DNA of 38,556 nucleotides from an uncultured Eubacteriales bacterium (GTDB lineage Bacteria > Bacillota > Clostridia > Christensenellales > Borkfalkiaceae): positions 1 through 38,556 of the forward strand of contig CATKEF010000059.1 in assembly GCA_949747905.1 (NCBI GenBank), in the 5' to 3' direction. The notes under the pieces are model-generated. The model had not been told where the DNA came from. It saw only the letters and a list, made by a program, of their open reading frames with translations, and searched no databases. Shown here in pieces: positions 29,480 to 38,089 of the stretch (positions within the stretch are counted from its first letter, which is position 1; the number at the start of each line of letters is the position of its first letter). Position numbers and translations under genes: made by a program.

Positions 29480-30175
29480 ATGAAAGTTTTTTCCGTAAGC
29501 GATTTACACCTTTCCGGACTGACGGACAAGCCAATGGACGTATTCGGTGCGGGGTGGGAAAATCACTTTGAAAAAATTAAAAGCGACTGGGAAAACAAGG
29601 TTTCGGACGAGGACCTTGTTTTAATCTGCGGTGATATAAGCTGGGGCAGAACGTTGGATGAAGGCTTGTACGATTTGCGTTCGCTCTCGGGGCTGAAAGG
29701 AAAAAAAATATTTATAAGAGGGAATCACGATTTCTGGTGGAGCGGCATAACAAAACTTCGCGCCGCCGCGCCCGACGATACTTTTTTCTTTCTTCAGAAC
29801 GACTGTCTGAAATTCGGCGACGTCGTGGTTTGCGGCTCGCGCGGCTGGACATGTCCCGGAAGTTCCGACTACACCGAGGACGATTTGCGTATTTACAAGC
29901 GCGAGGCTGAGCGCTTCGGTTTGTGTTTTAAGGAGGTCGAGAGAGTCCGTGAAGAGGGCGACAGGCTTCTCGTTATGATTCATTATCCGCCTTTTTCTTT
30001 GAAATCGCCTGATACGGATTTTACGAAACTGTTTAGTGAAAAGGGGGCGGACAAAGTTATTTTCGGGCACGTTCACGGAGATAATTATTTCCCTTTCAGA
30101 ACGGTGAAAGACGGGATTGAATATATACTGACATCCTGCGATAAGGTCGGCTTTACCTTGCAGAGAATTTTGTAG
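29480..30175 (+). CDS. Calcineurin-like metallophosphoesterase
   Basis: A soluble 231-residue phosphoesterase with the five metal motifs in order: SDLHL (D8, H10), CGDISWG (D52), RGNHDFWW (N82-H83-D84), MIHYPPF and GHVHGDN. All metal ligands are present, so an active di-metal enzyme is likely; the substrate (nucleotide, phosphoprotein or other phosphoester) cannot be told. GNHDFWW with a tryptophan pair is typical of a clostridial subgroup. No ribosome site is seen before the ATG; a -10 box lies six bases upstream. No terminator separates it from the pyr promoter. Confidence 0.88.
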   Translation: MKVFSVSDLHLSGLTDKPMDVFGAGWENHFEKIKSDWENKVSDEDLVLICGDISWGRTLDEGLYDLRSLSGLKGKKIFIRGNHDFWWSGITKLRAAAPDDTFFFLQNDCLKFGDVVVCGSRGWTCPGSSDYTEDDLRIYKREAERFGLCFKEVERVREEGDRLLVMIHYPPFSLKSPDTDFTKLFSEKGADKVIFGHVHGDNYFPFRTVKDGIEYILTSCDKVGFTLQRIL

Positions 30176-30204: not shown

Positions 30205-30233
30205 TTTACTTTGTAAAGCGGATATGATATAAT
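30205..30233 (+). promoter_or_regulatory. Promoter of the pyr operon
   Basis: TTTACT (30205-30210), 17 bases, TATAAT (30228-30233) with an extended TGA before it. Transcription should begin near 30238-30240, so the leader to the pyrB start is about 135 bases. An inverted repeat TCGATAT/ATATCGA (30239-30245 / 30256-30262) forms the 5' end of the RNA. Confidence 0.78.
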
Positions 30234-30282
30234 TTCAATCGATATATATTATAACATATCGAAATACAAGGCAGAAATTGAA

Positions 30283-30300
30283 ATGGTTTTTTACTTTTGA
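30283..30300 (+). CDS. Putative pyr leader peptide, five residues (MVFYF)
   Basis: ATG GTT TTT TAC TTT TGA reads M-V-F-Y-F-stop. AAGG at 30268-30271 is an acceptable though distant ribosome site (11 bases). The frame spans the most U-rich part of the leader (10 U in the 12 bases 30287-30298), and its stop codon ends 11 bases before the terminator stem. A ribosome on the stop would cover the left arm. I annotate it because this geometry copies the E. coli pyrBI leader; translation is not shown. Confidence 0.45.
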   Translation: MVFYF

Positions 30301-30311
30301 AAAAAAGTTGT

Positions 30312-30356
30312 GCGGTATCGGCGTCCGGAAATTTACGGCGCTTACCGCTTTTTTTC
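30312..30356 (+). terminator. Attenuator (intrinsic terminator) in the pyr leader
   Basis: Outer stem GCGGTA (30312-30317) with TACCGC (30343-30348); inner stem GCG-CCG (30321-30327, one bulged T) with CGGCGC (30336-30341); loop GAAATTTA; then seven T (30349-30355). It lies 18 bases before the pyrB start and stops the pyr mRNA unless prevented. Just upstream a small hairpin ACTTTT/AAAAGT (30293-30298 / 30303-30308) could pause RNA polymerase. No PyrR-binding consensus (UCCAGAGAGGCU-like) is seen. Confidence 0.82.
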
Positions 30357-30373
30357 TGCCGTAAGGAAATAAT

Positions 30374-31303
30374 ATGCTAAAAAACAAAGATTTACTGGGA
30401 CTTAAGAATCTGTCCGCCGAGGAGATTTGCGAAATTCTCGACGGCGCGGCGCAAGCGAAAGAATTCCTCTTGTCCGGATATAAAAAGTCGGAAACGCTGG
30501 CGGGGAAAGCGTTGGTTACGCTTTTTTACGAGAACAGCACCCGTACGCGCACCTCGTTTGAGCTTGCGGGGAAATATCTCGGCGCAAGCGAAGTTAATAT
30601 TTCGGTGGCTACAAGCTCCGTTCAGAAGGGAGAAACCCTTATTGACACGGGAAAAACGCTTGACGCGATGAAAATAGATTTCGTCGTAATCCGTCACCCT
30701 ATGGCGGGCGCGCCCAAACTGCTCGCCGAAAACGTTGAAGCTAGCGTTATCAATGGCGGCGACGGCATGCACGAGCACCCTACGCAGGCTCTTTTGGATA
30801 TGTTCACGATACGGGAAAAATACGGAAAGTTCAAAGGGCTTAAAGTTGCCGTTCTCGGCGATATAAAGCATAGCCGCGTGGCAATGAGCAATCTTTACGG
30901 ACTGAAAAAACTGGGAGCCGAGGTGTATATGTATGCTCCCGCCACAATGATACCCAAAGACATAGAAAAACTTGGCGCCATAGTGGCTGAAAGCCGCGAA
31001 GAAGCGCTTGACGGCGCGGACGCCGTTATGGGATTGAGAATTCAGCTCGAACGTCAGAACGGCGGTCTGTTTCCGTCTCTTTCGGAGTATTCGAAATTTT
31101 ACGGCGTGAACGAAGCGCTGCTTAAATACGCGAAAAAGGACGCGTTGGTTCTGCATCCCGGTCCCGTTAACAGAGGCGTGGAATTAACGCCCGGGGTAAT
31201 CGACGGGGAGAAAAGTAAAATTCTCGAACAGGTTACGAACGGTTTATGCGTGAGAATGTCGATACTCGGACTTCTTGCGGAGTACAGGGAGAAGAATTTA
31301 TGA
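30374..31303 (+). CDS. pyrB: Aspartate carbamoyltransferase catalytic chain
   Basis: Joins carbamoyl phosphate and aspartate to carbamoyl aspartate, the first committed step of pyrimidine synthesis. The 309 residues match the usual ~308. The carbamoyl-phosphate loop is STRTRTSFELAGKYLGA, the second HPTQALLDMFTI, and the substrate loop HPGPVNRGVEL near 256-266. No pyrI follows, as in most Firmicutes. Ribosome site TAAGGAAAT nine bases upstream. Its stop overlaps the pyrC start (ATGA). Confidence 0.97.
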   Translation: MLKNKDLLGLKNLSAEEICEILDGAAQAKEFLLSGYKKSETLAGKALVTLFYENSTRTRTSFELAGKYLGASEVNISVATSSVQKGETLIDTGKTLDAMKIDFVVIRHPMAGAPKLLAENVEASVINGGDGMHEHPTQALLDMFTIREKYGKFKGLKVAVLGDIKHSRVAMSNLYGLKKLGAEVYMYAPATMIPKDIEKLGAIVAESREEALDGADAVMGLRIQLERQNGGLFPSLSEYSKFYGVNEALLKYAKKDALVLHPGPVNRGVELTPGVIDGEKSKILEQVTNGLCVRMSILGLLAEYREKNL

Positions 31304-34318: not shown

Positions 34319-34813
34319 ATGGAAGTAATTGCAAGAAAACAATTCGGCGTAGGTCTCCAAGGCTTTATATGCATGATTTTAGGATTAGGGCTGGTAGGTT
34401 TAGGCTTCTGGTCAATAATGAGCGAAAATATCGATAAAATGGAACAAGTCGGTTTGTTCTTCGTTTGTTTTCTCTTAGGGTCGGCTGTAAGCATAGGCGG
34501 TTTAATACAATTAATCATAGCATTGATTAGCCCCGGGGAAATTATTACTTATAAAGACGGCAAATTAAGTTTTAAAAAAACAGAGTTTTCTCCGTCGCAA
34601 ATAAAAACTGTAGAATACAAACCTGCGTTTTCAAGATGGCATCTTGCCCGCTGGGGAAGAATTAAGGTGTTTTTATCGGACGGTCAAGTATTATCGAACA
34701 ACTGCGTTGCTCAAATCGAGCAGGTGCACAACAGGCTTATCGAATTAATGACAGAGCATATAAGTAAAGAAAAACAAACTGAATTTCAAGCGGAACGAGA
34801 TAACAAGAGGTGA
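34319..34813 (+). CDS. Unknown two-TM protein inside the pyr operon
   Basis: A 164-residue protein I do not recognise. Two membrane helices (about 13-32, GLQGFICMILGLGLVGLGFW, and 43-68) are followed by a ~95-residue soluble part of strand-like character, GEIITYKDGKLSFKKTEF...RWGRIKVFLSDGQVLS, which may be a PH-like (YcxB-like) domain with a final helix, and a charged tail. The ATG follows the pyrK stop without a gap and uses GAGGTGG inside pyrK. GC is about 39% by hand count against about 50% around it, and Leu is often TTA, so it is probably a recent arrival. It would be expressed with the pyrimidine genes; no link to that pathway can be seen. Confidence 0.8.
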   Translation: MEVIARKQFGVGLQGFICMILGLGLVGLGFWSIMSENIDKMEQVGLFFVCFLLGSAVSIGGLIQLIIALISPGEIITYKDGKLSFKKTEFSPSQIKTVEYKPAFSRWHLARWGRIKVFLSDGQVLSNNCVAQIEQVHNRLIELMTEHISKEKQTEFQAERDNKR

Positions 34814-38013: not shown

Positions 38014-38089
38014 GCTACTGTGGCTCAGCTGGTAGAGCAGCTGATTCGTAATCAGCAGGTCGCCGGTTCGAATCCGGCCAGTAGCTCCA
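38014..38089 (+). tRNA. tRNA-Thr (anticodon CGT)
   Basis: Full cloverleaf of 76 bases including an encoded CCA. Acceptor GCTACTG pairs perfectly with CAGTAGC, discriminator T. D stem GCTC/GAGC, anticodon stem GCTGA/TCAGC with loop TTCGTAA (anticodon CGT, reads ACG), T stem GCCGG/CCGGC with loop TTCGAAT. Single-gene unit with promoter and terminator. Confidence 0.97.

Follow-up and report, generated by a model that had tools for sequence, protein, structure and literature searches.

The pyrB leader within the window (the whole analysed stretch of 38,556 nucleotides) is likely a ribosome-coupled attenuator of the pyrBI kind, and comparison with related leaders makes ribosome-coupled attenuation well supported across the genus as a reading of the sequences. 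The downstream gene (380 bits against NF002032, cut-off 263) opens an operon on the + strand with the order pyrB-pyrC-pyrF-pyrK, an unnamed gene, then pyrD-pyrE. The gap between pyrK and pyrD (34319-34810) encodes a 164-aa protein that matches no NCBIfam family. Upstream of pyrB an ORF ends at 30175, and the leader region lies between this point and 30374 (Table 1).

Table 1. Features of the pyrB leader, with positions in the window.
Feature	Position	Strand	Basis and details
Extended -10 promoter	30205..30233	+	-35 TTTACT (30205-30210), 17-nt spacer, TG (30225-30226), -10 TATAAT (30228-30233); direct reading and promoter scan
AT-rich hairpin or palindrome	30240..30261	+	Predicted RNA 5' end; fold
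Weak Shine-Dalgarno (AAGG) ahead of the leader ORF	30268..30271	+	Duplex energy for the ATG start, -4.7 kcal/mol
GGCAGAAA, 5' strand of a possible long-range helix	30270..30277	+	Fold; tentative
TTG-initiated 28-codon ORF	30278..30364	+	Rival leader ORF through the terminator; overlaps the ATG ORF in another frame
Five-codon leader ORF, MVFYF-stop	30283..30300	+	ATG GTT TTT TAC TTT TGA; direct reading
U-rich tract	30287..30298	+	T6 starting 25 nt and T4 starting 17 nt ahead of the stem; T-run positions
Small hairpin	30293..30308	+	ACTTTT-GAAA-AAAAGT, with the leader stop codon inside; present in the MFE fold
Intrinsic terminator	30312..30355	+	GCGGTA (30312-30317) / TACCGC (30343-30348), inner pairs besides, seven T (30349-30355); -19.0 kcal/mol
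TTTCTGCC, 3' strand of a possible long-range helix	30353..30360	+	Fold; pairs with 30270-30277
pyrB	30374..31303	+	First gene of the operon; ATG at 30374

Direct reading bore out the coordinates that the initial annotation had given for the promoter, the MVFYF ORF, the small hairpin and the terminator. The promoter scores 10 of 12 positions, plus the TG, and the same extended -10 type precedes 40 + 16 other leaders. The leader RNA (30240-30373) folds more stably than its own shuffles (z -3.4). An intrinsic terminator is present between the promoter and pyrB, and a simple terminator scan does not list it. The AT-rich hairpin was not seen by eye in L038, the nearest relative (87% pyrB identity). 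Among curated RNA families, Rfam matches only a tRNA (38014-38086) in the whole window; on the leader at a relaxed threshold it gives ten matches, none of which reaches the gathering score, and it stays without a match on eight loci of pyrB or pyrR, six of carA and eleven others. No riboswitch or T-box family is matched in these searches.

The leader ORF of the window stops 11 nt before the terminator stem, and its AUG lies 29 nt from the stem. The chance level for this single leader was taken from 5000 dinucleotide shuffles, in which an ATG ORF of four or more codons, ending 17 nt or less before the stem or beyond that point, was counted. Such an ORF occurs in 64% of the shuffles when no Shine-Dalgarno sequence is demanded, in 18% when one of -3 or better is required, and in 5.5% at the window's own value of -4.7 or better; a stop ahead of the stem, demanded in addition to the last value, lowers this to 1.6%. 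Taken alone, the MVFYF ORF appears weakly to modestly beyond chance and is suggestive at best. The spacing between AAGGCAGA and the ATG is similar in the window and in L040, L046, L049 and L054.

The argument for a leader ORF is carried by the pyrB upstream sequences of the genus and of named records near it (L038-L113, not assigned to the genus here). From the first locus set 42 of 76 were used (the 34 dropped were mostly below 69% identity, and one was without a pyrB start), and the genus set of 67 was taken without L035, L135, L139 and L151, where the pyrB start is unusable. The resulting 43 + 63 = 106 upstream sequences comprise 70 distinct ones, 57 of which combine a terminator with a promoter of the extended -10 type; these include 16 long leaders that were missed by the first promoter scan and were added using longer upstream sequence. 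Of the 13 others, six are very short, with a terminator that the script overlooked or a length below the 30-nt cut; two have no terminator, and in five the script found none (L073, L074, L076, L077 and L078).

An ATG ORF with a Shine-Dalgarno energy of -3 or lower, ending at most 17 nt before the stem or beyond, is present in 35 of the 57 leaders, against 13.9 +- 3.0 in shuffles (maximum 20); the leaders are related to one another, and these counts are not independent. The first 41 leaders taken separately give 30/41 (shuffles 8.4 +- 2.7, maximum 16). The same kind of ORF (at least 4 codons) without the Shine-Dalgarno filter is found in 49 of the 57 (shuffles 33.3 +- 3.1, maximum 42), and 49 also carry one when GTG and TTG starts are allowed and the Shine-Dalgarno is required (shuffles 28.9 +- 3.4, maximum 38). 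Dropping the Shine-Dalgarno requirement while still counting GTG and TTG starts removes the signal (53/57 against 51.3). In 13 of the 16 long leaders a common ATG frame starting with MA has a constant Shine-Dalgarno of -2.9, just beyond the -3 cut. The 49 best ATG ORFs range from 5 to 49 codons (median 20), the window's being the shortest, and their median AUG-to-stem distance is 53 nt; the stop lies ahead of the stem in 23, within the hairpin in 21 and beyond it in 5. The layout of leader ORF and terminator that had been proposed for the window is thus supported by its relatives and is not confined to this stretch; close relatives mostly carry longer versions of it. As a separate observation, the pyrB terminators of L024, L029, L033, L062, L064, L068, L069, L075 and L154 are alike in their inner part, around ACCGTTCGG..CCGYGCGGAA, and in having a tail TTTTTTGTG, a likeness which by eye goes beyond the needs of a stem.

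The close leader pairs that were tried, at pyrB and at carA, show no excess of third-codon-position changes, so that the case for coding by the leader ORFs comes from their layout only; this absence fits peptides whose sequence may not matter. Amino-acid specific attenuation was discarded as a candidate, there being by eye no regulatory codon common to the leader peptides of pyrB and carA. The histidine leader peptides of bacilli are likewise a case of leader peptide attenuation in Firmicutes; their sensor is a series of histidine codons, whereas the window has a pyrimidine operon and shares no regulatory codon by eye (PMC2965389). A pyr leader peptide in Firmicutes is mentioned in none of the titles and abstract openings of the open-access literature searched, a weak result given that most subscription papers lie outside it.

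The closest known system is the E. coli pyrBI leader (pyrL), with which the window shares the layout of a leader ORF with a Shine-Dalgarno sequence (putative in the window), a U-run 25-28 nt before the stem, an intrinsic terminator and pyrB next. There too a promoter precedes the leader. The two also differ: pyrL has 44 codons, against five in the window, its stop lies past the stem rather than before it, its peptide has no evident likeness to MVFYF, and the two organisms belong to the Gammaproteobacteria and the Clostridia, respectively. On balance, these likenesses and the genus-wide recurrence argue that the window region probably is a transcription attenuator working like that of E. coli pyrBI.

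A further ORF, which had escaped the initial annotation, could bring the window closer to pyrL. The TTG frame of 28 codons is open across the terminator, has AAGG six nt upstream and stops 9 nt before pyrB; pyrL likewise crosses its terminator, leaving 3 nt to pyrB, and 5 of the 49 best ATG ORFs extend past the hairpin. That this is the working leader ORF is nevertheless unlikely: its Shine-Dalgarno energy is -3.5, weaker than the -4.7 of the ATG, it is the ATG and not the TTG that keeps the AAGGCAGA spacing of L040, L046, L049 and L054, and ORFs reaching the hairpin are frequent by chance once TTG is allowed. TTG is, moreover, usually a weak start codon. A working TTG frame would be one form of the same mechanism, and its probability overlaps with that of the pyrBI-like attenuator.

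How such an attenuator could work depends on the position of the U-tract. In the pyrBI scheme the ribosome catches up with a polymerase that is paused in the U-tract. The U-rich tract that the initial annotation placed ahead of the terminator stands, as the U-run starts 25 nt before the stem, close to the 28 nt of E. coli pyrBI (MG1655 record), and lies in a region enriched for such runs among the relatives: runs of at least four T starting 20-35 nt before the stem occur in 18 of 41 leaders, against 7.4 +- 2.3 in shuffles (maximum 17), and the three other leader stretches tested show no excess. The catch-up step proposed along with it fares worse. In E. coli 60 nt (88 - 28) separate the A of the AUG from the beginning of the U-run, whereas in the window 4 nt do, and the start codon is not far upstream of the U-tract as it is in pyrBI (4 and 29 nt, to U-run and stem, against 60 and 88). 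Classical catch-up therefore hardly fits the window, where the AUG-to-stem distance is 29 nt instead of the 88 of E. coli. Given the footprints of polymerase and ribosome, a polymerase paused at this U-tract would cover or crowd the start site.

With the ORF shrunk to five codons and the paused polymerase expected to cover the start site, loading of a ribosome is proposed instead of catch-up inside the ORF. Transcription would start near 30240, and with plentiful pyrimidines the terminator would end the transcripts. When UTP is low the polymerase would slow in the U-tract, and the delay would most likely give a ribosome time to load at a site just leaving the polymerase. A ribosome translating the short ORF close behind the polymerase would then block folding of the stem and allow readthrough into the pyr operon. 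We infer UTP as the signal, and also the sign of the response. In an E. coli test system a ribosome at a stop codon near a terminator can repress termination, near completely at short distances and no longer beyond about 27-30 nt (PMC4824070). The effect is sequence dependent there: one series gave a termination of 0.12 at 17 bp, while a different series still terminated at 0.8 with 18 bp. By analogy, the 11 nt between stop and stem in the window would fall within the repression range of that system.

The fold of the leader offers a different explanation, in which a structured RNA, with the helix GGCAGAAA:TTTCTGCC closed round the terminator, responds to a ligand or is bound by a protein. Over the leaders, pairing with the cognate partner is stronger than with permuted partners (59/20000 permutations as low). 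In 38 leaders this holds for the 28 nt ahead of the start codon (11/10000 permutations as low with an 18-nt partner, 289/10000 with a 12-nt one) and for the opening 28 nt of the ORFs (18 and 50 of 10000), and does not hold for the next 28 nt (7804 and 5570). Singly, 9/41 leaders reach 5% of shuffles or less, where about 2 are expected, and in the window 53/2000 shuffles are as low with a 22-nt partner and 1/200 with an 18-nt one. Against such a regulator, Rfam gives no match, several relatives are without the helix, the relatives are not independent, and the corresponding pairing in E. coli stays within shuffles (318/1000 as low). The 3' strand, moreover, is made only after readthrough, past the termination point, and therefore cannot decide termination. 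A sensing RNA of this kind is accordingly quite improbable; a helix that forms at all might, tentatively, close the ribosome site of the leader after readthrough.

The nearest relatives bear on whether the pyrBI-like attenuator is still in use in this particular copy. A quick pyrB tree of 52 rows places the window and L038 (support 92) next to a group of 15 rows (support 83) with leaders of several kinds. By eye, six of them (L044, L048, L051, L055, L056 and L067) are very short and without a proper ORF, L048 having an ATG frame and no Shine-Dalgarno; in L050 a terminator is present without an ORF, L039 and L041 keep a promoter and a short ATG frame without a terminator (by eye), no terminator was found in L073 and L074, and L047, L053, L059 and L060 have leaders with longer ORFs. 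In the six very short leaders the promoter is closely followed by a terminator of the type GGCAAAAAGGCTTTTGCC. Conservation in close relatives, which the initial annotation had put forward as a check, gives a mixed outcome: the U-runs start at the same places in the window and L038, several sisters have no proper ORF, and the 8-codon ATG frame of L038 begins 1 nt past the predicted transcription start and has no Shine-Dalgarno.

Because some sister leaders are without an ORF or a terminator, the window copy may be decaying. Its ORF could then be a remnant or a product of chance, with ribosome coupling lost and the terminator setting a low constant level or answering another signal. The position of the window and L038 beside such a group speaks for this reading, as does the single-case chance of 5.5-18% for the ORF; the ATG spacing and U-run positions that the window has in common with relatives speak against it, and we regard it as rather unlikely. 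The leader may accordingly be an attenuator that is being lost, or the smallest form that still works.

Control of pyr operons in Firmicutes is usually exerted by PyrR, and in Bacillus this occurs by PyrR attenuation, at the same kind of operon and with a terminator ahead of the first gene. In the searches made here the genus differs from Bacillus in showing neither the gene nor a match to its RNA: none of 93 genus genomes, 61 of them at least 90% complete, has a pyrR (NF003549) above the cut-off, the best match in the window's own genome reaching 24.1 bits against a cut-off of 138. The RNA element (RF00515) has no match in the window or the leader; it matches in 21/201 family genomes, 2 of these over the gathering score and none of the 21 in the genus, under strict filters by which weak matches are lost. 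A missing RNA match alone says little, because L156 and L157, pyrR-bearing loci from sister genera, are also without one. The earlier statement that the window has no pyrR gene and no PyrR consensus thus extends to the whole genome and to the 93 genomes of the genus, together with the missing RF00515 match. Across the family sample pyrR is present above the cut-off in 104/201 genomes and 15/18 genera; 67 of the 171 genomes from other genera (G093-G263) are without it at that threshold, and PyrR is therefore patchy in the family. Its prevalence in Firmicutes and its presence in most of the family's genera would favour PyrR-type control through a diverged protein or site, which the empty genus genomes, the low score of the own genome and the matchless RNA searches make highly improbable.

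Within the same genome, the clearest evidence for a leader-ORF attenuator is the carA leader (L164, contig C34). It has a promoter (TTGACT-17-TATAAT), a putative leader ORF of 37 codons (MQMINLSGYIESEFFLLHGGLFSTAETDIFQKLSFVD-stop, Shine-Dalgarno -6.5) and a terminator GACTGATTTA..TAAATCAGTC with a T-rich tail, and the leader stop codon lies within the 5' arm. An ATG ORF of at least 25 codons that ends in frame at the hairpin stop is found in 14 of 15 carA leaders with this hairpin, this one included, against a mean of 0.5 and a maximum of 4 in shuffles. The 15 derive from 31 + 11 = 42 carA loci, 16 of which have the hairpin by a loose pattern, one (L199) being cut by the contig end; the start is wrongly set in L182 and L198, L198 and L209 come from one genome, and L205 and L206 are near copies. 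The one hairpin-bearing leader without the ORF is L200, two of the 14 ORFs (L204 and L209) have no Shine-Dalgarno, and L212 and L228 are ORF-bearing leaders outside this count.

The exact pattern of the hairpin GACTGATTTA..TAAATCAGTC occurs in 33/301 family genomes, every one belonging to this genus. At L213-L227 and L229-L232 it is present without a short ORF, and at the nine of these loci that were inspected it directly follows the end of a gene, as an operon-internal terminator at the stop codon. In relatives with carA in an arginine operon it lies between argB and argD, immediately behind the argB stop (genes confirmed by family search in L213 only). As the same hairpin also sits in arginine operons, carA is no proof of UTP sensing; the signal of the arginine-operon copies could be arginine or carbamoyl phosphate. 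The region upstream of pyrG shows nothing obvious by eye.

Taken together, the two leaders suggest a broader picture, which we put forward tentatively and consider possible rather than probable. A genus of gut Clostridia without PyrR would have ribosome-coupled attenuators at pyrB and carA, independent of the enterobacterial system, and the pyrB version in the window would be an initiation-timed switch: a polymerase starved of UTP would wait in the U-tract while the ribosome site emerges, and whether a single ribosome loads on the five-codon ORF would decide termination.

If true, pyrBI-style control would exist outside the Gammaproteobacteria, in a genus without the usual protein regulator. 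Leader ORFs of 5 to 49 codons, with some leaders having none, would provide a natural series for the limits of transcription-translation coupling. The extent of this coupling in Firmicutes is debated, and a working Firmicute case would be informative.
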